A stretch of 64,000 nt of DNA, from the IMG/VR virus record IMGVR_UViG_3300042539_001379, positions 1 through 64,000 of that record; one strand, given 5' to 3'. The position numbers were made by a program, and so were the translations under genes. Each line of letters opens with the position of its first letter. Within the stretch, counting starts at the first letter, position 1. Shown one piece after another: positions 11,424-38,569 of this stretch. The notes below the pieces were generated by a model. The model was not told where the DNA came from. It saw nothing but the letters and a program-made list of their open reading frames with translations, and did no database searches. Source of the stretch: a virus.

Positions 11424-12299
11424 TTATAGAATTTTTTTGCTGATATATAAAGCGGCACCTATACTAGAACCGGCATCACCGGGAAAATTTGGCACATGAA
11501 AATCTTTGAATAAAATCTTAATTTTGTTGTGTACAAATTTATTATACGCACAACCTCCAGTAAATACAAGTTTATTACTATACTGCCTTGCAATATTGGC
11601 TAATTTAATAATTTCTTTCTCGAACACAAACTGAACCGAAGCCGCAATATTAATTGTATCGTTGCTATTACTTGTGTTAACGTCCCAATCCCATATTCCT
11701 TTATGCAAATTTTTATCTAAATAAGATTTAACTTTATCGTGGTAAATCCAAGGATTTCCTTTTTGACTTATATTCATTAATACAGATTCATCTCGAACTG
11801 GTTTTAATCCAATTAACTCTGTAAATGCTGAATAAAATAAACCTAAACTATATGGGTAGTTTTTAACCATAACACGTTCAAAATTTCCATAACTGTAATT
11901 CCAAATGCTGACAGTATTCCACTCTCCGATAGCATCTACTACTAGTACAGCCGTATTATCAAAACCGCTAGAATAAACACCAAAATGTGCATGACTTAGA
12001 TGATGGGGTGCATAAAAAATAGGAATTGAATTTAAATTAAATTGTTTTAGATATACAGACGGCAAATTTTTAAAAGATAATGCATCTTTAAATTGACCGG
12101 CATAGATCTGTCTTGTTTTTTTAAGCCAAGGGTTTTCGTACCACGCAATCACATCTGGATTTCCAAATTTCTTTGCTTCTTCCACAAGATCATTAGTTAA
12201 ATAAAGACTGTTTTTTGATTTTTTATGAAAAAGTATGTCTTTATCGAACACGCATATACTTGTGTCGTGATTGAGTGCGTTAATTCCAAAAATTTTCAT
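11424..12299 (-). CDS. Carbamoyltransferase-like protein, N-terminal (Kae1-like) domain only
   Basis: 291 aa matching the N-terminal domain of NodU/TobZ-type O-carbamoyltransferases. It has the start GINALNHDTSICVF, metal-binding HHLSHAHFGVY near residue 110, VVDAIGEWNTVSIW, and the late LVFTGGCAYNKFVHNKI with FPGDAGSSIGAAL near the end. Full-length members have a further YrdC-like region of about 200 aa that is missing here. The sequence ends cleanly, so this may be a solo domain rather than a frameshift. It could work with a separate partner to carbamoylate a sugar or a modified nucleobase. It ATGA-overlaps the small gene upstream. Confidence 0.75.
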   Translation of the reverse strand: MKIFGINALNHDTSICVFDKDILFHKKSKNSLYLTNDLVEEAKKFGNPDVIAWYENPWLKKTRQIYAGQFKDALSFKNLPSVYLKQFNLNSIPIFYAPHHLSHAHFGVYSSGFDNTAVLVVDAIGEWNTVSIWNYSYGNFERVMVKNYPYSLGLFYSAFTELIGLKPVRDESVLMNISQKGNPWIYHDKVKSYLDKNLHKGIWDWDVNTSNSNDTINIAASVQFVFEKEIIKLANIARQYSNKLVFTGGCAYNKFVHNKIKILFKDFHVPNFPGDAGSSIGAALYISKKIL

Positions 12300-13575: not shown

Positions 13576-14004
13576 TTAATCTGCTTTCTTACCTTTATCT
13601 TTTTCAGTAATTGGGCCTCCGGTAACCCATGCTTTACAACTGCGACTACCTGCACATTTAAAATGTAAAAAATTACAATATCCTAGATCGCTGAGATTTA
13701 TAGTTGCGTTTGGGTCAATATTTTTTTCGTTGCCTTTAATCCCAGTTGCAATGCATTCCCTCATGCTATCGCTAACATCGAATGCTGCACAATTACCGCA
13801 TCGCATTGTTTTAGCAGTTGTCTCACTTACTCCAAATATCTTAGCAGATTTTTTCCAATAATCTTCTGGTTTATCGGGATTGGCTGGCCCGTAGTGATAT
13901 TCGTCTATGGCTTTTTGCCGATTTTTTAAATTAATATCTATGTTATGTGTGGCAATTGGGCAACCTTTATTTGCCGATTCGACTAATGTTATAAAATTTC
14001 TCAT
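13576..14004 (-). CDS. Cys-rich protein with capsid-targeting-like N-terminus
   Basis: 142 aa. It begins MRNFITLVESAN, resembling T4 internal-protein leaders with a possible cleavage after L-V-E. The C-terminal half has an ordered cysteine set: RCGNCAAFD, MRECIATG, GYCNFLHFKC and SRSCKAWVTGGP, six to seven cysteines consistent with an iron-sulfur or zinc module. The ATG overlaps the stop of the -1 frame extension upstream (TGATG), so translation is coupled to frameshifting. The residues 30-60 helix region is polar. Function unknown. Confidence 0.75.
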   Translation of the reverse strand: MRNFITLVESANKGCPIATHNIDINLKNRQKAIDEYHYGPANPDKPEDYWKKSAKIFGVSETTAKTMRCGNCAAFDVSDSMRECIATGIKGNEKNIDPNATINLSDLGYCNFLHFKCAGSRSCKAWVTGGPITEKDKGKKAD

Positions 14005-14225
14005 CAGTTTTTCTCAATAGCGTGTTTTCTAGCAGACTGTGCCATTTGAATTTTTTTAGCAGGAGTTTTATTTCTAAATTGATGATATCTTTCTGGGTCA
14101 GCATCTAAAAAAGTTTGTTCCCATTGATCCAATGACACGGCAGGAGTTAATTTTACTGCCGGCTTTAATTTAGGTTTATCTTGAGCAGGATCCTGTGCCG
14201 GATCTTGCGGTTCCTGCTCACTTAC
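14004..14225 (-). CDS. -1 frame C-terminal extension of the 649-aa polyprotein
   Basis: A 73-codon open frame with no ATG near its beginning. It is entered by a -1 shift at the A_AAA_AAG heptamer (14231-14225) one codon before the zero-frame TAA. It opens VSEQEPQDPAQDPAQ, then a Lys/Pro linker, then a charged helical tail (SLDQWEQTFLDADPERYHQF and a basic end). Its TGA shares one base with the next gene's ATG, as expected of a real coding frame. The fused product would be 722 aa. A sequencing indel in the six-A run is the alternative. Confidence 0.7.
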   Translation of the reverse strand, partial: VSEQEPQDPAQDPAQDKPKLKPAVKLTPAVSLDQWEQTFLDADPERYHQFRNKTPAKKIQMAQSARKHAIEKN

Positions 14226-14250
14226 TTTTTTGATTTATTTTTTGCCTTCC
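14183..14250 (-). promoter_or_regulatory. Programmed -1 ribosomal frameshift cassette
   Basis: In transcript order: a Shine-Dalgarno-like GGAAGG (14250-14245), 13 nt, the slippery heptamer A_AAA_AAG in the zero frame (14231-14225), 5 nt including the TAA stop, then an 8-bp perfect stem GAGCAGGA / TCCTGCTC (14219-14212 with 14190-14183). Inside the loop, GATCC and GGATC could form an alternative inner helix. This is the same architecture as E. coli dnaX. There is no T-run after the stem, so it is not a terminator. Confidence 0.75.
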
Positions 14251-16171
14251 AAGCAGCACCGTAGGCCTTGCGTTTTTCTACATCAGTTAGTTTACCGTCT
14301 TTTCTATATCCTGCTTTAATATGCTTGACTATACGTTCATATTTGTCTCCTGGAGGAGCCTTTTCATATAGTTGATTCATAAGACTTTCGATATAAGAAT
14401 CCTCGCCTACTGGTACACAGTTGTCTACAGTGCGGCCACCTTTCTTTTTAGTGCCCATACGTTTGTAACCTTTCCAGCAGGCTTTACCATCTACACCTTT
14501 TTTCTTGCCTTCCGCTACACCTTGCTGACCGGCATCTAATCCTTTGCCGTATAATGTTACGGCTTTAGCGCCTACACCATATGGAGGATTCATTACAATA
14601 CCTTGTTTGCCGTGTTCGACGCCAATAGCATACCAATCAATATTGGCAGCACCACCGGCCTTTTGTGCTTCACGCTTCCAGAATGATAAAGAATTCATAC
14701 CTTCCGCTACACTTGCTTCATTTTTTGGTTGCCAAAACTTTCCTGGACCAAATAATTTATCTGCTTGTGAATTTTGATAAGTCGAATACCATTTTCCACT
14801 TTTGCTTTGTTTTAAACCAGCAGATTGTGCATCATTTTCTTGCCCAGGTTTTACGTTATAAAAATACATTCCTGAAGGCTTTGAATATGATCTACTAGGA
14901 TATCTTGATCCATATCTGCTACCGCCATAACTACTGCCCGGTGCTCCACGAAGTAATTCTTTTTCGCCCTCGTCGTTGACACGCCATACATTGCCTTGAC
15001 TATCTTTATAAGTGTGGGTTTCGTACTCATTAACTTGAGATTCTAACGCACCTTGTTCTCCACCGATGCTGCGCAATACAGCAGTTAAATAATCTGCCGA
15101 TTTAGTAATTTTACTTTGTTGCCATGCTTCTAGCCCTTCCATCTCGCTATAACGTTTGATTAGAACTAATAATTTTTTAGCATCAGACATGATACTTTGG
15201 AGTTCGTTGCTGGCCATGCTAATTTCGTGGTCAGGTTCTTGATCGCCTTCCGCCACACCTTCATTGTTTTCATCTTCAGCATCAAAATCATATTTGTCGT
15301 ATTGAATGTGACCGTCGTGTCCGATGCCAGACAGCACCACCATAACATAGTCGTCGCCATAATCGGGTTCCCATCCTAATGCCCTTAATTCATCTGCATT
15401 GTCGCCGTCAGTCCAGTATTGGTAAGCCAATGGAAATAATTTTGCCTTGTATTTTTCCATACTTGGCAAGTATGATGGATCAAGATCAACTGGTTCAAAT
15501 TCTTGTGTCGGCCACATCTCGTCAGCATCGCCTGGAGTAATTTTTCCAGTCATTTTTCTCATTGATTTATCAAATTTTTCGTCACCTGTTGTTTCCGCCA
15601 CACCTTGTTCCGTAGTAGATTGTGTATATGGTATACCGATTAATGTATTTTTATAGGTTCCATACACATAATCGTTTACATTATTTTTGATCTGATACTC
15701 AATACCAGATTGATTCATAGTGTCATCTACTAGTTTTTTTTCTTGAGGGGTCAATTCACGGGTTATCTTAATAACTAACATAGTTTTTTTGGCTCGTAAC
15801 GAATCTCTGGCTGAACGACGCAAGGATTTATAAAGATCCTTGGATATTTCAATAACCTCTGGACTTAGATCGGCTTGTTCAATTCCTTCTGCTACACCTT
15901 TCTCTTCATCAAAAGGCTTACGATGTTTTTCTTTACCTTGTTTTTGTTCTTTTTTCTTATCACGATGCGCACCTGCACCGGTCTGTGATTTCATCGGACC
16001 TTGACGAGGCTTCTGATTAACAGGCACAGAAATTGTCTGTCGTCTTTGAAGTTCACCTAGGGGTTTTTCCGCAGTAGCAATACTATTCGTTCCAATAGCA
16101 CCTGCAGTTGTTGTTTCTAAAACGTACCTAGTTTCATTAGGTAATTTAACTTTTTTAAATTCTTCGTTCAT
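14222..16171 (-). CDS. Modular polyprotein with five VAE motifs, putative internal head protein
   Basis: 649 aa in the zero frame. Five copies of a (G/S)VAE(G/T) motif, at about residues 93-95, 191-193, 306-308, 488-490 and 552-554, split it into modules of roughly 95, 98, 115, 182, 64 and 95 aa. The motif resembles the T4 prohead protease rule (L/I)xE before a small residue. The N-terminal module is basic and disordered; the last has CWKGYKRMG and a Lys-rich tail (WKAKNKSKK). No enzymatic domain was recognised. It overlaps the upstream 121-aa gene by 4 nt and ends at the frameshift cassette. Confidence 0.8.
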   Translation of the reverse strand: MNEEFKKVKLPNETRYVLETTTAGAIGTNSIATAEKPLGELQRRQTISVPVNQKPRQGPMKSQTGAGAHRDKKKEQKQGKEKHRKPFDEEKGVAEGIEQADLSPEVIEISKDLYKSLRRSARDSLRAKKTMLVIKITRELTPQEKKLVDDTMNQSGIEYQIKNNVNDYVYGTYKNTLIGIPYTQSTTEQGVAETTGDEKFDKSMRKMTGKITPGDADEMWPTQEFEPVDLDPSYLPSMEKYKAKLFPLAYQYWTDGDNADELRALGWEPDYGDDYVMVVLSGIGHDGHIQYDKYDFDAEDENNEGVAEGDQEPDHEISMASNELQSIMSDAKKLLVLIKRYSEMEGLEAWQQSKITKSADYLTAVLRSIGGEQGALESQVNEYETHTYKDSQGNVWRVNDEGEKELLRGAPGSSYGGSRYGSRYPSRSYSKPSGMYFYNVKPGQENDAQSAGLKQSKSGKWYSTYQNSQADKLFGPGKFWQPKNEASVAEGMNSLSFWKREAQKAGGAANIDWYAIGVEHGKQGIVMNPPYGVGAKAVTLYGKGLDAGQQGVAEGKKKGVDGKACWKGYKRMGTKKKGGRTVDNCVPVGEDSYIESLMNQLYEKAPPGDKYERIVKHIKAGYRKDGKLTDVEKRKAYGAAWKAKNKSKK

Positions 16172-16533
16172 TTTTTACTCCAATTCGCCACTGGACTTAC
16201 TGTATAAGTATCTGGTGTTTCTTGACTTCTCATGTCACCTTTGTTTACATCGTGTATATTAACTCCGGCTACTTTAGCCGCAACATTGATCATATCTTGA
16301 TCACATTGACTATATGGATGTAGACTTTTATATCTACCGATCCAACTTTCTTCATCCATCTCTGGCATTGTTTTTCCATCAGTTGCAGCCAGTGCCAAGC
16401 CCAATCTATATAATTTGTAATCGCTATTCCACTTATCGTCATCAGTGTATTTGTTAACGCCGCGGGTAGGATTTTGTTGACGCTTGGTCATTTTTCCGCC
16501 TTTGCGTTCAACCATGAATTCGCGTGCTCTCAT
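16168..16533 (-). CDS. Small protein with capsid-targeting-like N-terminus
   Basis: 121 aa. It begins MRAREFMVERKGGKMTKRQQ, similar to T4 internal-protein leaders, though the site would be M-V-E rather than L/I-x-E. The rest is polar, with a SWIGRYKSLHPYSQCDQDMIN segment near residue 65 and a DVNKGDMRSQETP tail. No known domain. It overlaps Dps by 4 nt upstream and the polyprotein by 4 nt downstream, inside the putative internal-head operon. Confidence 0.7.
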   Translation of the reverse strand: MRAREFMVERKGGKMTKRQQNPTRGVNKYTDDDKWNSDYKLYRLGLALAATDGKTMPEMDEESWIGRYKSLHPYSQCDQDMINVAAKVAGVNIHDVNKGDMRSQETPDTYTVSPVANWSKK

Positions 16534-16964
16534 TTAAGTGTTGCCTTTAACATCCAACCGTGTTTAGCATGAGCATCTAATCTACTAGCAATAAAATCAC
16601 TAAATCCATGTTCGCCTGCTGCTTCACTGACTTCGAACAATTTCTTTAAGATAACTTTCATTTTTTCATTATCTTTAAGCAATTCAGCAACCATTTGCTT
16701 ACCGTCGAAGATTTCTGTTTCGTCTTCGACTTGTGTTAACATATTAAGTCTAGTGTAACTGCCGGGCATATATGTATCTAAACTACGAATTTGTTCAGCA
16801 AACACATCTATGCTTTCATAAACTTCTTCGTAAATTTTACCAAATAGATTATGCAAAGGTTCAAAAAACATACCTTCTACGTTCCAATGGAATTGGTGTG
16901 CTTTTAGATAAAAACTAAACTCGCTGGCAAATGCTATTTTTGCTAATTGGTGTAATTGTTCCAT
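16530..16964 (-). CDS. dps: Dps-family ferritin-like protein
   Basis: 144 aa with the Dps ferroxidase pattern: H26 in FHWNVEG, H38 in PLHNLF, D53 and E57 in SIDVFAEQI, with the same spacing as E. coli Dps (12, 15 and 4 residues). Dps dodecamers oxidise and store iron and shield DNA from Fenton damage. The short N-terminus lacks the Lys-rich DNA-binding tail. The start codon is only 7 nt from a late-type AATAAATA box and has no Shine-Dalgarno, so a leaderless late transcript is possible. Grouping with internal-head genes raises the idea that it is virion-linked. Confidence 0.9.
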   Translation of the reverse strand: MEQLHQLAKIAFASEFSFYLKAHQFHWNVEGMFFEPLHNLFGKIYEEVYESIDVFAEQIRSLDTYMPGSYTRLNMLTQVEDETEIFDGKQMVAELLKDNEKMKVILKKLFEVSEAAGEHGFSDFIASRLDAHAKHGWMLKATLK

Positions 16965-16979: not shown

Positions 16980-17286
16980 AAATTTTACGTTCGCCAGTTA
17001 GGTAGGGTTTACTGAACCAAAGTTTAAACCATTCTTCTGTTCCTGGCTGAATATTTTTTTCACGCATAATACGAGCATTTTCTGCTGCGGTTGTTGTAAT
17101 GTTACCACCTTGATTTAATCTAGATTGCGCAGTCTGTTGATTATATTCCGCTAATCTTGCTTGTCCGCCTAGACCTCCTAAAAACTGAAGTCTTTTTATT
17201 TGATGTGCGGGATCGTCGGGTGCAAGATAGCAATCATCGGGGCTGTCTTGTGCGATATTTTCTTGAGTGATGTAATACTGTTTCAT
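16978..17286 (-). CDS. Small polar protein of the internal-head cluster
   Basis: 102 aa. It begins MKQYYITQENIAQDSPDDCYLAPDD, has a Gly-rich middle and ends with IQPGTEEWFKLWFSKPYLTGE. No domain recognised. It overlaps the end of the 1085-aa gene by 53 nt in another frame, an unusually long overlap, and its stop overlaps the late box of dps. Codon reading and the ordered C-terminal motif support it as a real gene. Confidence 0.7.
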   Translation of the reverse strand: MKQYYITQENIAQDSPDDCYLAPDDPAHQIKRLQFLGGLGGQARLAEYNQQTAQSRLNQGGNITTTAAENARIMREKNIQPGTEEWFKLWFSKPYLTGERKI

Positions 17287-20200
17287 TGGTAAAATTTAAC
17301 CTTAATAGTGCATTAAACAATCTAGTTTCTGATGTATAATCTTTATTATTAATTTTATAAAGATTTTCAGTGTCGAATTTATGAATCATTCCTGTGTCAA
17401 CTGATTTTATTTTTGCTTTAGATCGATCTAAATTAACTGCTATTACTTTCCATGTTTCGCTAGAACCTTTAAATGAAACTAAATCACCTACATTTATTTT
17501 TCCAGGTACAGGATCAAATATAGATGATTCTACTACGGGAGCAGCAGCGGGAGGTTGGATATTCATATTTTTTCTTGCAACATCCATTAGGTGTTTGATA
17601 TATTCAACACCTAATTTTTCTACATTAAAACCTTTGCTCCATATTTGAAGGGCTTGATTTTCAGGCATAGTTTTTAATGCATTTCTCATTTGAGTAGTGC
17701 TTACACCAGTTCCGCCTGCTTCTTCATTTCGAGAACTTATATCTTCTTCCCATTTAACATGCTTTAGATTTGGATGGTTTCCAAATCTATTGGTTGCCCA
17801 TGCAACTAACCCATCTGCAAATGCTTTTCTGTCTTCGCCTACTGCTATAATAATATGATTAAAATACGGCGGTTTTTTCATTAGTTCATATTCGACTTTC
17901 TTACCAAATTGACCAATTGTTGCTTTATCTGTTTGTAAATCAAATTGTGCGTCTACACTTAATATGCCTACTCCTGGAAATAGTTTTCTAAGAGTTTCTA
18001 ATTTTGTTTCTACAGGAAATGGATCATCTGGTCCTACTTTACCACCTACATATACAAATGGAGTCGCTCCTTCTTTATTTGCTCTATCTATGGCAATACT
18101 TATTAACTGTTCATGACCTCTATGTCCAGCAAAACTACCCATGGCAACAACCGCAGATCTTTTTTCAACAGATCCAAATGATTGCTTTTGTAATATTTTT
18201 TCTTTCATCAAGGGACTTGTAACTTTAAATAGTCTTCCACTAGGCATGTTTCCAACAATACCTTCGTTGTATGGGCCTAGCATATCCATACCTTTTAATT
18301 TTGGACTATCAATAATTGCCTTACTTAATTCTGCCCTTGCTTTATCTAATACAGGAATTACTTGAGCATCTCTAATGGCTCTGTCTGCTGGTTTTCTGCT
18401 AGTCAGTGTTGCCCGCAAATCTGCAGGCAAATTGACAACAGGAGCAATTATTTTACCAACATTTATTCCTGATTGATCTAATTCGTTTGAAATAATTTTA
18501 ATGTTAGAATCACTTGTTGATAGTAATTTTTTAATTATATTTTGTTCATCGGGTATTCGTTCTTTAGTTGAATACTTTTTAACCATGAACGGGGCCAACG
18601 TCATTACTTTCCCTAATTTTTTTACATCGTAAGGAATATTAACAAATGTTTTAAATCCTTGACTGTCTGGAGTCATATTCGAATCGTACATCATTTCTGC
18701 TTGTACAATTGTGTCGGGGGGTAAAGTTTGAATAAATTTACTTTTTAAAATTGTTTCAGCAGCCTTGTCATAATTAATTGCTCTTGCAATTGCGGCTTTA
18801 CCTAATTCGCTGTTCGGATCTAATTCACCTTTTTTTACTAATTCTTGATTATAAGCCAAGAATGATCCTACATCTTTTAATCTAACTGGATCTGATCTAC
18901 TGCTAGTAATAAAAAATGGCTCTCCAGATTCGTCTTTACCGAATCTCATACCCATTCCGTCGACTTTTAAATTTATCTGTATATTATCTAAATTTCCGCC
19001 TAGTTGTGCTATTTCGTCGCATAATTCTACGAATGCAGCAGGCTTCATTTCTGTACTACTTGGAGTACCGTCGGGTCTACGACTATAAATGTGTTCAATA
19101 CCTTGCCTACCATAATTTGGCTTGGCATCTTCTTCTGTTAATACATTAATAGGCCATTGTCCGGCTGCTTTTAATTTTTTTCTAAGAGAATTATACTGAA
19201 TATCTTTTCTAGCAGCACCTTTGCTGGTTACATTGATAGCATCTTGTTTTTCTTTAGGTAAACTATCAAACCATTTCTTAAATTGTTGTAAATCAAAATA
19301 TTCATCTGAATATATTTTTGCCATTGCTACTGCTTGATCTCGTAATTGTTTTTTGTTTGAAATTTTTAAAATTTCTAGTCCTTTATCAATTGCGGCAAAT
19401 TTTGCCTCAGCATCGGATTCTGGATTATCTCGATCGATCATCTGTGCTGCTTCGTCAAAACAAATTTTTATAAATTCTTCAAATGCAGCAGTTATTTGAC
19501 TTTGATCTAAATATTTGTTCATTAGTTCTAAAGTCCCTACATAACTTTTTTGTAAAGTTTTATCGTTTCCGCTGGGCTGCACTCCAAAAAACATTTCGAA
19601 CTGTTGATCTAAATTTTGTATATAAGTTCTTTGAGCGCTGGGCAATTCTTGTTGTACAGGAACACCTTTTATATCCATAGGTTTTCCAGTTTGCGGATCT
19701 AAGTAAGGAGAGAATTTATAACTTGCTCCACCTCCCTGACTGCTTCCTACTGCAAAACTTATATCTTTTGATTGAGTAGGTTCTGGTTCTATATTAATAG
19801 CACGATTTTTTCCCGAGCCTTTATATGCTGCTATGTGCTTTGGAGTTACTTTAGCAGCAGGTAATGCTCTGTAAATCCATTTATGAAATACACCCTTAAT
19901 GCCTGCGGTAATATCGTCCCACTCTGAACTATGACTAAATTTATACCATTCGGTGGGGTGACCTAATTCTTTATCATATTGCCCAAATTCAAAATCAATT
20001 TGAACATTTAGTCCAATTTCGTCGATACGAAAAATTGAATTGAATTGTTCCGCAGAAGAAGAATATCCCAATAATCTTCCTGGACCAAACTGTTGTTTAT
20101 AATGATCATCTAAAAATTTTTGTATCTGTGGTTTTTGATCTACATCGCATTGTACATCGATATCGCCGACTTTTTGTTTATATTTTGTAAATTCTTGATC

Positions 20201-20491
20201 TGAAATTCCAGCAGTATTAAAAAAGTGTTTAGAACTTCCGCTTAAATATTCGTTTGATTTAAATAATTCTTCTCCAAAAATTGGTTCTTTATAAATGGAT
20301 TGAAAACTTTGATTCAACGCATTAATTGTTTGTTTTACTAAATTAGCAGCCTGAGTTCTGTTAGTTTTTTCAAGATCAATTTTTTCAGCAGAATATACAA
20401 TCTCTGGATTATCTCTATCGGCGACTTGAGCATTACCGCCTTCAGTTAATTTTTTATTTTGAAAGATATTTATAATTTCAAAGATTTTCAT
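17234..20491 (-). CDS. Triple nucleotidyltransferase fusion with capsid-targeting-like N-terminus
   Basis: 1085 aa. Residues 1-19 (MKIFEIINIF... KLTEGG) look like a T4 capsid-targeting peptide with cleavage after L-T-E. Residues 70-240 form a Pol-beta-type nucleotidyltransferase: SGSS (84-87), GDIDV (D110, D112) and third acid in VQIDF (D166). Residues 450-760 carry ligase/capping motifs: I KVDG (K509), FFITSSR (526-532), IV EGIV (743-746) and V LFKV (K756). Residues 775-975 form an HxGH adenylyltransferase like NMNAT: GSFAGHRGH (785-793) and VSTTQMR (930-936). A beta-rich tail follows from about 995. It could be an injected RNA/DNA repair or nucleotidylating factor; function is unknown. Confidence 0.8.
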   Translation of the reverse strand: MKIFEIINIFQNKKLTEGGNAQVADRDNPEIVYSAEKIDLEKTNRTQAANLVKQTINALNQSFQSIYKEPIFGEELFKSNEYLSGSSKHFFNTAGISDQEFTKYKQKVGDIDVQCDVDQKPQIQKFLDDHYKQQFGPGRLLGYSSSAEQFNSIFRIDEIGLNVQIDFEFGQYDKELGHPTEWYKFSHSSEWDDITAGIKGVFHKWIYRALPAAKVTPKHIAAYKGSGKNRAINIEPEPTQSKDISFAVGSSQGGGASYKFSPYLDPQTGKPMDIKGVPVQQELPSAQRTYIQNLDQQFEMFFGVQPSGNDKTLQKSYVGTLELMNKYLDQSQITAAFEEFIKICFDEAAQMIDRDNPESDAEAKFAAIDKGLEILKISNKKQLRDQAVAMAKIYSDEYFDLQQFKKWFDSLPKEKQDAINVTSKGAARKDIQYNSLRKKLKAAGQWPINVLTEEDAKPNYGRQGIEHIYSRRPDGTPSSTEMKPAAFVELCDEIAQLGGNLDNIQINLKVDGMGMRFGKDESGEPFFITSSRSDPVRLKDVGSFLAYNQELVKKGELDPNSELGKAAIARAINYDKAAETILKSKFIQTLPPDTIVQAEMMYDSNMTPDSQGFKTFVNIPYDVKKLGKVMTLAPFMVKKYSTKERIPDEQNIIKKLLSTSDSNIKIISNELDQSGINVGKIIAPVVNLPADLRATLTSRKPADRAIRDAQVIPVLDKARAELSKAIIDSPKLKGMDMLGPYNEGIVGNMPSGRLFKVTSPLMKEKILQKQSFGSVEKRSAVVAMGSFAGHRGHEQLISIAIDRANKEGATPFVYVGGKVGPDDPFPVETKLETLRKLFPGVGILSVDAQFDLQTDKATIGQFGKKVEYELMKKPPYFNHIIIAVGEDRKAFADGLVAWATNRFGNHPNLKHVKWEEDISSRNEEAGGTGVSTTQMRNALKTMPENQALQIWSKGFNVEKLGVEYIKHLMDVARKNMNIQPPAAAPVVESSIFDPVPGKINVGDLVSFKGSSETWKVIAVNLDRSKAKIKSVDTGMIHKFDTENLYKINNKDYTSETRLFNALLRLNFTNETVLHHSRKYRTRQPR

Positions 20492-20843
20492 TTTTATTTC
20501 TCAAACCATAATTTTCACAATAGTGGTCATACAACCTTTTACAAATGCCTTCTCTCATTTCTTGAGGAAATTTTTTATTCATCCTACCGGACATTTTTTT
20601 GTCTTCATAAAAGTTTTTACAACCGTCTACGACCATTGGCATAAACAATTCGTATATTTGTCGATCGCCACATTCGTCTAATGATTTTATTTTTTTAGAA
20701 ATTGGAAAAAAATGTTCTTTATGCAACCGATCATTATCTAAAATAAACCAAAATAAGTCATCGTCAAAATTTTGCATTTGATTTTTATTTTTTTGATTAT
20801 GATCAATGTCAATAGGTTTGCTGAAAAATTCTTTTAAGAACAT
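20478..20843 (-). CDS. Small charged protein, unknown function
   Basis: 121 aa from the ATG at 20843, which has a GGGAGT ribosome site and follows the upstream stop by a few bases; longer readings would start inside the neighbour. It begins MFLKEFFSKPIDID. The remainder is helical, with FDDDLFWFILDNDRLHKEHFFPISK and a Cys-containing C-terminus (ICKRLYDHYCENYGL). No domain was recognised. It overlaps the start of the triple nucleotidyltransferase by 14 nt. Confidence 0.65.
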   Translation of the reverse strand: MFLKEFFSKPIDIDHNQKNKNQMQNFDDDLFWFILDNDRLHKEHFFPISKKIKSLDECGDRQIYELFMPMVVDGCKNFYEDKKMSGRMNKKFPQEMREGICKRLYDHYCENYGLRNKNENL

Positions 20844-20847
20844 TAGA

Positions 20848-21330
20848 TTACTCCCATGCTCTGCAAGACCAATATCTTGCTTTCCACCGCGGCCCGGGAT
20901 TAGCACAATTATGTCTAGCCCTAAAACTTTTGCGACGTTTAGGATTAGACTTTTTAATCTTCATCTTTTTATCGCCAAAATTGACTTTGACAACATTTCC
21001 TTTTGGACCTTTTACATAAACTTTAGATTTTTTAACATCACCAGACATGGGTTTACCTAACTGAACATTGCGTCCTTGATATTCGGCTTCATCAAGACTG
21101 CCACCGCCCTCCATGATTGCCAGTTGCATTTCTGTAAATTTAGTGATAGATTCTTGGACAGGGGTATGTGATAGATATGATAACACCGTGTCATCACCTT
21201 GAATAACAACTCCGTCATTCATAAATCCAACGATAACAGATTCTATAAGAAGTCCGTTATCAAGCTCTAGAGCAAATACATCTCCAGTTCTAATAGTATT
21301 ATCTGATTCGATTAAGTCTAGTATACGCAT
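20848..21330 (-). CDS. Protein with capsid-targeting-like start and basic Cys-containing tail
   Basis: 160 aa. It begins MRILDLIESDN with a possible site after L-I-E, then a small beta-barrel-like segment (TGDVFALELDNGLLIESVIVGF). The C-terminal 70 aa are a distinct module: YQGRNVQLGKP, VYVKGPKGNVVKVNFGD, and a strongly basic NPKRRKSFRARHNC ending with ARYWSCRAWE. That module recurs in many T4-like phage genomes and looks nucleic-acid binding. A late-type GGTAAATA box stands 7 nt before the ATG without a Shine-Dalgarno. Confidence 0.75.
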   Translation of the reverse strand: MRILDLIESDNTIRTGDVFALELDNGLLIESVIVGFMNDGVVIQGDDTVLSYLSHTPVQESITKFTEMQLAIMEGGGSLDEAEYQGRNVQLGKPMSGDVKKSKVYVKGPKGNVVKVNFGDKKMKIKKSNPKRRKSFRARHNCANPGPRWKARYWSCRAWE

Positions 21331-38092: not shown

Positions 38093-38569
38093 TTACCATT
38101 TCTCCGATAAATTAGTTTTTAATGTTTCTGCTTCTTTAACTCGTTTACGAAGATTACTAGAGCTAAAACTATGATCCCTACCGTTATATACCAATTCAAT
38201 TCCTCTTTTAATACAAATATCTTTACCAGTAAAATCTTTTCCTTGATATTCAACACCTAAAATTCTAACATTGATTGGTAAAGTCAACAGTATATCTTCA
38301 AGATCTTTTTCTGTTTGGTATACTACGATTTCGTCAACATACCTAACTGCTTGAAGTTGAATTTGCCGCTCTACAATGCTTTGTACAGGATTATTTTTAG
38401 TATTAGGTCTGTCAATGGTGGGATCTGTTTGAAGTGCTGCAATTAGATAATCACAGTGTCTTTTTGCTTCACTAAGCATAGCAATATGCCCTGCATGTAA
38501 AAGGTCAAAGGTACTAAAAGTAATACCAACTTTCTTTTCTTGAAGTTCTTTAATTTTATTAAAAATCAT
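38093..38569 (-). CDS. Cytidylyltransferase-family nucleotidyltransferase (TagD/RfaE-like)
   Basis: 158 aa, a single HxGH nucleotidyltransferase domain. It has GITFSTFDLLHAGHIAML near residue 15 with HAGH, YLIAALQTDP, and the C-terminal SFSSSNLRKRV corresponding to ISSTxxR. Such enzymes form CDP- or ADP-linked intermediates in lipid or sugar metabolism; in phages they may feed glycan synthesis. It is distinct from the HxGH domain in the 1085-aa fusion. It overlaps no neighbour but is 1-2 nt from both. Confidence 0.85.
   Translation of the reverse strand: MIFNKIKELQEKKVGITFSTFDLLHAGHIAMLSEAKRHCDYLIAALQTDPTIDRPNTKNNPVQSIVERQIQLQAVRYVDEIVVYQTEKDLEDILLTLPINVRILGVEYQGKDFTGKDICIKRGIELVYNGRDHSFSSSNLRKRVKEAETLKTNLSEKW

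Follow-up and report, generated by a model that had tools for sequence, protein, structure and literature searches.

Internal head proteins of phage T4 (IPI-III and Alt) begin with a short leader that ends in [L/I]-x-E, are processed by a gp21-type protease and have been proposed to be injected; cleavage by gp21 follows the E of L/I-x-E, and a capsid-targeting sequence (CTS) of 10 residues, the start of IPIII, is enough for packaging (PMC9026906). Polyvalent proteins are large, multidomain, probably injected and proteolysed into functional units, the splitting being attributed to a built-in metallopeptidase (Iyer et al., 2017; PMC5512222). RNA repair has been described in jumbo phages, where RlaP proteins, Pol-beta nucleotidyltransferases that travel with Rnl2-type RNA ligases, are believed to replace lost nucleotides ahead of sealing (PMC7824862), and head-packaged NAD/ADP-ribose enzymes are also on record (PMC9503650). 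Here, we consider a gene in a 64,000-nucleotide stretch of viral DNA (positions 1 to 64,000 of IMG/VR record IMGVR_UViG_3300042539_001379; hereafter the window), the source of which is a T4-like freshwater phage that encodes three nucleotide-transferring enzymes in one long protein. The open reading frame (17234-20491, minus strand, like all features of this gene) begins with ATG and specifies 1085 residues: a leader, a Pol-beta-superfamily nucleotidyltransferase (NT), an RNA-ligase-type covalent nucleotidyltransferase domain (LIG) joined to an HxGH adenylyltransferase domain (HGH), and a C-terminal piece. The same DNA occurs at loci L001 and L003, and near-identical versions at L002 and L004.

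The locus resembles each of the known systems in part. Its leader, the gp21-type protease and the prospect of injection recall IPI-III and Alt, but the window precursor would hold several enzymes with internal cuts, with a Pol-beta nucleotidyltransferase and an RNA-ligase/HxGH protein as the cargo. Like the polyvalent proteins, the chain combines several effector domains that are unrelated to one another (NT, LIG and HGH here; HD_4, lysozyme, GP88, amidoligase and ParB domains in relatives); however, splitting is predicted to occur in trans by the prohead protease, and no peptidase domain, and hence no built-in metallopeptidase, was detected in the window protein or in the scanned tails of its relatives. 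Nor does the accessible part of the polyvalent-protein study name an RNA ligase among their domains (PMC5512222). As in the RlaP and Rnl2-type repair systems (PMC7824862), a Pol-beta nucleotidyltransferase travels with an RNA ligase, yet the sequence of NT is not that of an RlaP, the ligase is fused to an HxGH domain, and delivery by the virion is predicted. In the open-licence literature, neither an enzyme polyprotein cut by a prohead protease nor a packaged RNA ligase was found described.

An earlier note, made from the letters alone, had claimed three unrelated nucleotidyltransferase folds in this chain, and the claim is borne out: KLTEGG (14), GSSKHFF (85), DIDVQCD (110), QIDFEFG (164), KVDG (509), EGIV (743), FKV (755), HRGH (790) and STTQMR (931) are all present at the residues shown in brackets. 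Because the catalytic residues are invariant across homologues, the motifs of all three domains can be considered beyond chance, and alignments and models together make it almost certain that three folds with intact motifs are present. The structure predictions, for which rows of annotated phage records were left out of the alignments, gave confident models.

The NT domain (predicted mature residues 18-453; 19133-20440) has GS at 85-86, followed by D110, D112 and D166. Across 75 NT homologues, GS, GDxD and QxDxE (G85/S86, D110, D112 and D166/E168 in the window protein) are invariant, as is the GGN immediately after the leader. Its AlphaFold2 model has a predicted local distance difference test (pLDDT) score of 95.2, and the best PDB matches in Foldseek are Pol mu and Pol beta, with probabilities of 0.96-0.98 and E-values of only 0.01-0.05. 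GS, DxD, a third acidic residue and the palm fold, which together define the Pol-beta nucleotidyltransferase superfamily, are thus all found. Residues 15-377 are covered by phrog_19290, a PHROGs family listed with unknown function (E 7e-30), and a BFVD search with NT returned two strong matches, both nameless; PDB sequence searches with the single sequence and with an NT profile were uninformative. RlaP was considered as an identity for NT and rejected: PF10127 matched no NT gene in 12 records, and the true RlaP that it does match in G009 is another gene located elsewhere. Tandem NT paralogues, both starting with MGGN, occur in L033 (8991-11188) and L032 (4770-6461).

LIG (residues 467-768; 18188-19093; K509, E599, E743, K756) and HGH (residues 774-963; 17603-18172; H790xGH793, GEDR 885-888, STTQMR 931-936) were modelled together with a pLDDT of 89.6, and their Foldseek matches have E-values of 1e-4 to 1e-3. 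Among 44 LIG-HGH homologues, K509, D511, G512, E599, E743, G744, K756, H793 and D887 are invariant. LIG matches the RNA ligase of Naegleria gruberi and an archaeal RNA ligase (5cot, the 6vt series and 5d1o), and shows the KxDG lysine, motif III glutamate, motif IV EG, motif V lysine and fold of the covalent nucleotidyltransferase/RNA ligase superfamily. The residues named as mutated in the titles of the Naegleria entries (K170, D172, E312 and K326) have plausible counterparts in K509, D511, E743 and K756. By its modelled fold, LIG resembles nick-sealing RNA ligases. It differs from the Naegleria enzyme and from the archaeal ATP-dependent RNA ligase in being joined directly to HGH, and the similarity is distant (11-15% identity). 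PF09414 (RNA_ligase) had no match in the window protein up to an E-value of 1; the homologue in L023 reached 1.3e-5 with 25.8 bits, just under the cut-off of 27. The only Pfam hit of the window protein is FAD_syn in residues 776-814, sub-threshold at 6e-4, while phrog_3041 (cytidyltransferase) covers residues 775-943 (E 5e-7) and Foldseek links HGH to FAD synthetase, PPAT and NadD. With (H/T)xxH near its N-terminus, a GxDR-like motif, ISxTxxR and a Rossmann-like fold, HGH has all the features of the HxGH adenylyltransferases and presumably adenylylates a phosphate group. Two further genes may be mentioned here. The LIG gene of L080 (11056-13005) lacks HGH and is fused to DUF6267 instead, a domain that brings KWDG and EGEGF motifs of its own and may likewise be ligase-like; and a small stand-alone HxGH protein (TFDLLHAGH) is encoded at 38093-38569 of the window (minus strand), possibly a relative of the cytidylyltransferases.

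The leader (residues 1-17, MKIFEIINIFQNKKLTE; 20441-20491) is predicted to be cut between E17 and G18, in agreement with the motif [LIV]xE/GGN of the homologues (the slash marks the predicted cut). In all 97 leader-bearing NT proteins with a complete start, the leader ends in [LIV]-x-E right before GGN (GSN in one), the P3 residue being L in 61, I in 27 and V in 9. Ten NT proteins without a leader start directly as MGGN; in L006 and L023 the ATG of MGGN lies within an over-long open reading frame call. L175 has the leader motif too, reading LME/GGN. At the DNA level no leader lies upstream in L007 and L006, so these bare starts are real. Among cultured phages, NT has a leader in Campylobacter phages CP220 and IBB_35 (AEF56792.1 in the latter) and none in Vibrio phage Va1. 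On the NT tree, leader presence switches at least 5-6 times, every time at the same residue; the leader is present on 69/69 fusions, and the 11 rows without one all belong to unfused proteins. In L058, L126, L133 and L136, which have an upstream gene fused ahead of NT, the joint still reads [LI]ME/GGN. Since leader-bearing, bare and fused NT proteins all place GGN identically, two routes, proteolysis or removal of Met, appear to preserve the Gly-Gly-Asn terminus of the mature protein. In L022 (3421-5088), NT begins MGGNLVLISE/GGN, with both types of start in series.

A leader of about 10-20 residues ending in [L/I]-x-E, along with a gp21-type protease in the genome, is the signature of a T4-type CTS, and both are found here. 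Peptidase_S77, the T4 gp21 type, is encoded by G002 and six further records; locus L003 of G002 matches the window with 100% identity over 12.7 kb. No such gene was found in five of the records searched, among them the 84-kb window record, but these may be fragments. Separate LIG and HGH genes of several phages also have leader-like starts (e.g., MGFEKYLQE/A, MNFETYLSE/S and MLLSELFE/A).

The same cut motif recurs inside the chain, as counted in 70 non-redundant fusions with expectations from shuffles. The linker between NT and LIG carries [LIV]xE in 70/70 fusions, against 22.3 +- 3.9 in shuffles, with Ala after the E in 58/70; in the window this is LTE453/E454 (19130-19141). Within the domains the motif is rarer than expected (NT, 172 versus 294; LIG, 226 versus 318; HGH, 95 versus 148), and at the LIG-HGH junction it occurs in none of the 70, with 3.8 expected. 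It returns behind HGH, where 67/69 fusions have a copy within 80 residues (42.8 expected); the window copy is VVE988/S989 (17525-17536), beyond which lies the C-terminal piece (residues 989-1085; 17237-17527), whose matches are confined to the same phage. Given the leader motif, the sites in the linker and after HGH, and a LIG-HGH junction without any, we read the chain as probably a polyprotein precursor that is cut inside the capsid into NT, LIG-HGH and optional cargo, with leader 1-17, NT 18-453, LIG-HGH 454-988 and tail 989-1085 as the predicted products. Processing is strongly predicted from these patterns, and that the chain is both cut and packaged is, in our estimation, quite likely. 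The single fused chain of the earlier note therefore stands as an open reading frame; its action as one enzyme chain does not, as a protease site parts NT from LIG-HGH in all 70 fusions, which makes the 'one chain' probably a precursor. The note's further proposal of a capsid-targeting-like leader on an injected enzyme gains good, if indirect, support from the [LIV]xE/GGN leaders, their occurrence on every fusion in the tree and the gp21-type protease of the same phage.

Among 50,697 phage records the window protein matches 22, all from Campylobacter, Vibrio and Xanthomonas phages, and the LIG-HGH fusion gene is found in 21, the same Campylobacter and Vibrio phages that have NT. Alignment scans of viral contigs yielded 115 deduplicated loci, about 80 of which are full three-domain fusions, invariably in the order NT-LIG-HGH; the remainder include two- and three-gene versions of the same parts as neighbouring genes. 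Thus, Xanthomonas phage X1 has three genes in one cluster that correspond to NT, LIG and HGH, and the Vibrio phages have a stand-alone NT gene followed by a ligase-HxGH fusion gene, while in some fragmentary records NT is the sole part found. This co-occurrence in the same phages suggests that NT and LIG-HGH form a functional unit. A scan of genome contigs with the NT alignment (one pattern scan only) confirmed no relative, which suggests that the family is restricted to phages. In Campylobacter phage CP220 the NT and LIG-HGH genes lie 66 kb apart; gp101, which adjoins NT there, was considered as a partner and rejected as a fibre-like protein.

What the unit might do is indicated by the neighbours of its unfused versions. 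Six unfused loci have a gene for a calcineurin-like phosphoesterase (metallophosphoesterase) at a distance of 0-724 bp from NT or LIG. A binomial estimate for this adjacency assumes a rate of 3% and serves as illustration only. Since AAA_33 kinases are widespread in these genomes, kinases were counted only when adjacent or fused; by this measure, zeta/PNK-like P-loop kinases are found in L020 as a fusion with LIG, in L023 next to NT, in L106 at a distance of 287 bp from LIG, and in L100 at 1 kb from NT. L106 and L023 have phosphoesterase, NT, kinase and ligase all in one cluster, in differing orders. Kinase, phosphatase and ligase constitute the classical set for healing and sealing RNA ends (T4 Pnkp/Rnl1, bacterial Pnkp). 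In light of the RNA-ligase fold, this end-healing gene set and the RlaP precedent, RNA repair is moderately predicted from sequence and models, and if the chain is indeed cut and packaged, we consider it the somewhat favoured function. Among the roles offered in the earlier note, RNA end repair is therefore strengthened by the ligase fold and the adjacent phosphoesterase or kinase of some unfused relatives, whereas DNA repair and nucleotidylation of host targets found no specific support.

Hence, we propose that the 17-residue leader directs the chain into the prohead, where the phage's T4 gp21-like protease would cut after [L/I/V]-x-E, at E17 and then at about E453 and E988. The first cut would yield an NT of about 436 residues starting with Gly-Gly-Asn, and the others a two-domain LIG-HGH enzyme of about 535 residues and the C-terminal piece, which would enter the cell along with the DNA. 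There, NT could restore or add nucleotides at RNA ends in the manner of Pol-beta-type enzymes, and LIG, through a lysyl-AMP at K509, could seal 5'-phosphate to 3'-OH ends that in some relatives would be healed beforehand by the P-loop kinase and the calcineurin-like phosphoesterase. The likely target would be tRNA cut by host anticodon nucleases. In this scheme the folds, the catalytic residues, the conservation of the cut motifs and the associations between genes come from sequence and models, while packaging, cleavage, injection, the RNA substrate and the tRNA target are inferred. This joint explanation, a head-packaged polyprotein that is cut and injected as an RNA (tRNA) repair kit, we hold to be about as probable as its being wrong.

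Several observations weigh against it. The cut motif is short and has copies inside the window NT (IDE at 156) and HGH (VGE at 884), and the window linker site has Glu at P1', the rarer residue there (6/70). CP220 has a leader on NT and none on LIG-HGH, and thus joint packaging is not universal. Neither phosphoesterase nor kinase was found near fused loci, no tRNA genes lie within the window, and we know of no part played by HGH-like domains in RNA repair. Finally, the structural matches of NT reach the superfamily level only, and the closest of them, Pol mu, works on DNA.

That repair leaves HGH unexplained gives some room to a takeover of the host, in which head-delivered enzymes would tag or inactivate host RNA or proteins by nucleotidylation, tailing or adenylylation, with no repair involved; Pol-beta nucleotidyltransferases and other modifying domains are indeed used as injected effectors in polyvalent phage proteins (PMC5512222). 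However, the RNA-ligase domain retains all its nucleotidyltransfer motifs, and kinase and phosphoesterase neighbours suit end healing better, and we regard such a takeover as unlikely. The affinity of NT with Pol mu and Pol beta, its nearest solved folds, could instead signify a polymerase and ligase that protect or join the ends of injected phage DNA, where injection with the DNA would place them; this is very improbable, as LIG is like the Naegleria and archaeal RNA ligases and unlike DNA ligases, and CP220 encodes the parts 66 kb apart. Little probability likewise attaches to a metabolic module, in which HGH would make a cofactor or activated nucleotide (NAD-, FAD- or CoA-like) and NT and LIG would catalyse further biosynthetic steps: HGH has the FAD synthetase, PPAT and NadD type of fold, and NMN adenylyltransferases are among the enzymes that phages encode (PMC7824862). 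Against this, the LIG gene of L080 does without HGH, with the KxDG-like motifs of DUF6267 instead. Moreover, we know of no cofactor pathway in which an RNA-ligase fold and a Pol-beta domain have a place. An ordinary intracellular enzyme, uncut and unpackaged, would accommodate the bare MGGN homologues that show NT without a leader and the LIG-HGH pair that remains joined in many phages, but is likewise very improbable beside linker sites in every fusion with depletion inside the domains, leader changes that recur on the tree at one residue, and genes of one phage that match another's segments between predicted cuts.

More broadly, and a little more tentatively than the joint explanation itself, we suggest that T4-like phages may encode, in the form of head polyproteins, an RNA repair kit that the virion delivers. 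The protease of capsid maturation would double as the processing enzyme and free an injected nucleotidyltransferase, an RNA ligase-adenylyltransferase and, in relatives, cargo with SpoT-like HD and lysozyme domains, and NT would need a free Gly-Gly-Asn N-terminus. If true, repair enzymes would come in with the genome, ahead of any phage gene expression, and anticodon-nuclease defences would be countered as soon as they strike. Phages would, moreover, have a polyprotein strategy in which processing falls to the prohead protease, and head cargo would become readable from sequence alone through [LIV]xE boundaries and CTS-like starts. Cultured Campylobacter and Vibrio phages carry phrog_19290 and phrog_27149, both listed with unknown function; the two families would thereby receive a testable function, as would the corresponding genes of Xanthomonas phage X1. 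Campylobacter phage IBB_35 has a published virion proteome (PMC3322345).

The surroundings of the gene, all on the minus strand, contain further pieces of such polyproteins. The upstream gene (20478-20906, likely start 20843, MFLKEFF...) has homologues fused before NT in L058, L126, L133 and L136 (41-49% identity). On the other side, a small leader-like protein (MRAREFMVE...; 16168-16533) is homologous to C-terminal polyprotein segments of L143 and L130 (47-49% identity), and a 649-residue protein with four xVAE/G sites (14222-16171), whose C-terminal part is homologous to polyprotein tails, is a probable second head polyprotein. A protein with the leader-like start MRNFITLVE/S (13576-14004) shares 52% identity (E 6e-40) with a homologous segment in the polyprotein of L014, which is flanked there by AVAE/D and GVAE/G. 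By these homologies, there is module exchange, neighbouring window genes corresponding to segments of the polyproteins of relatives.

Larger relatives carry HD_4 (SpoT-like), lysozyme with LysM, GP88, amidoligase or ParB domains behind HGH. The HD_4 (SpoT/MESH1-like) tails of L017 (1808-7564) and L068 (9956-14104) are possibly an injected ppGpp hydrolase, and tails with phage lysozyme and LysM, GP88, amidoligase_2 and a second NTP_transf_2 domain occur in L155 (11444-13594), L074 (12560-14635) and L071 (12575-16378). On the minus strand, the window also encodes a Dps/ferritin-like protein near the 1085-residue gene (16530-16964) and, at 11424-12299, a carbamoyltransferase with the N-terminal domain of the NodU/CmcH type.

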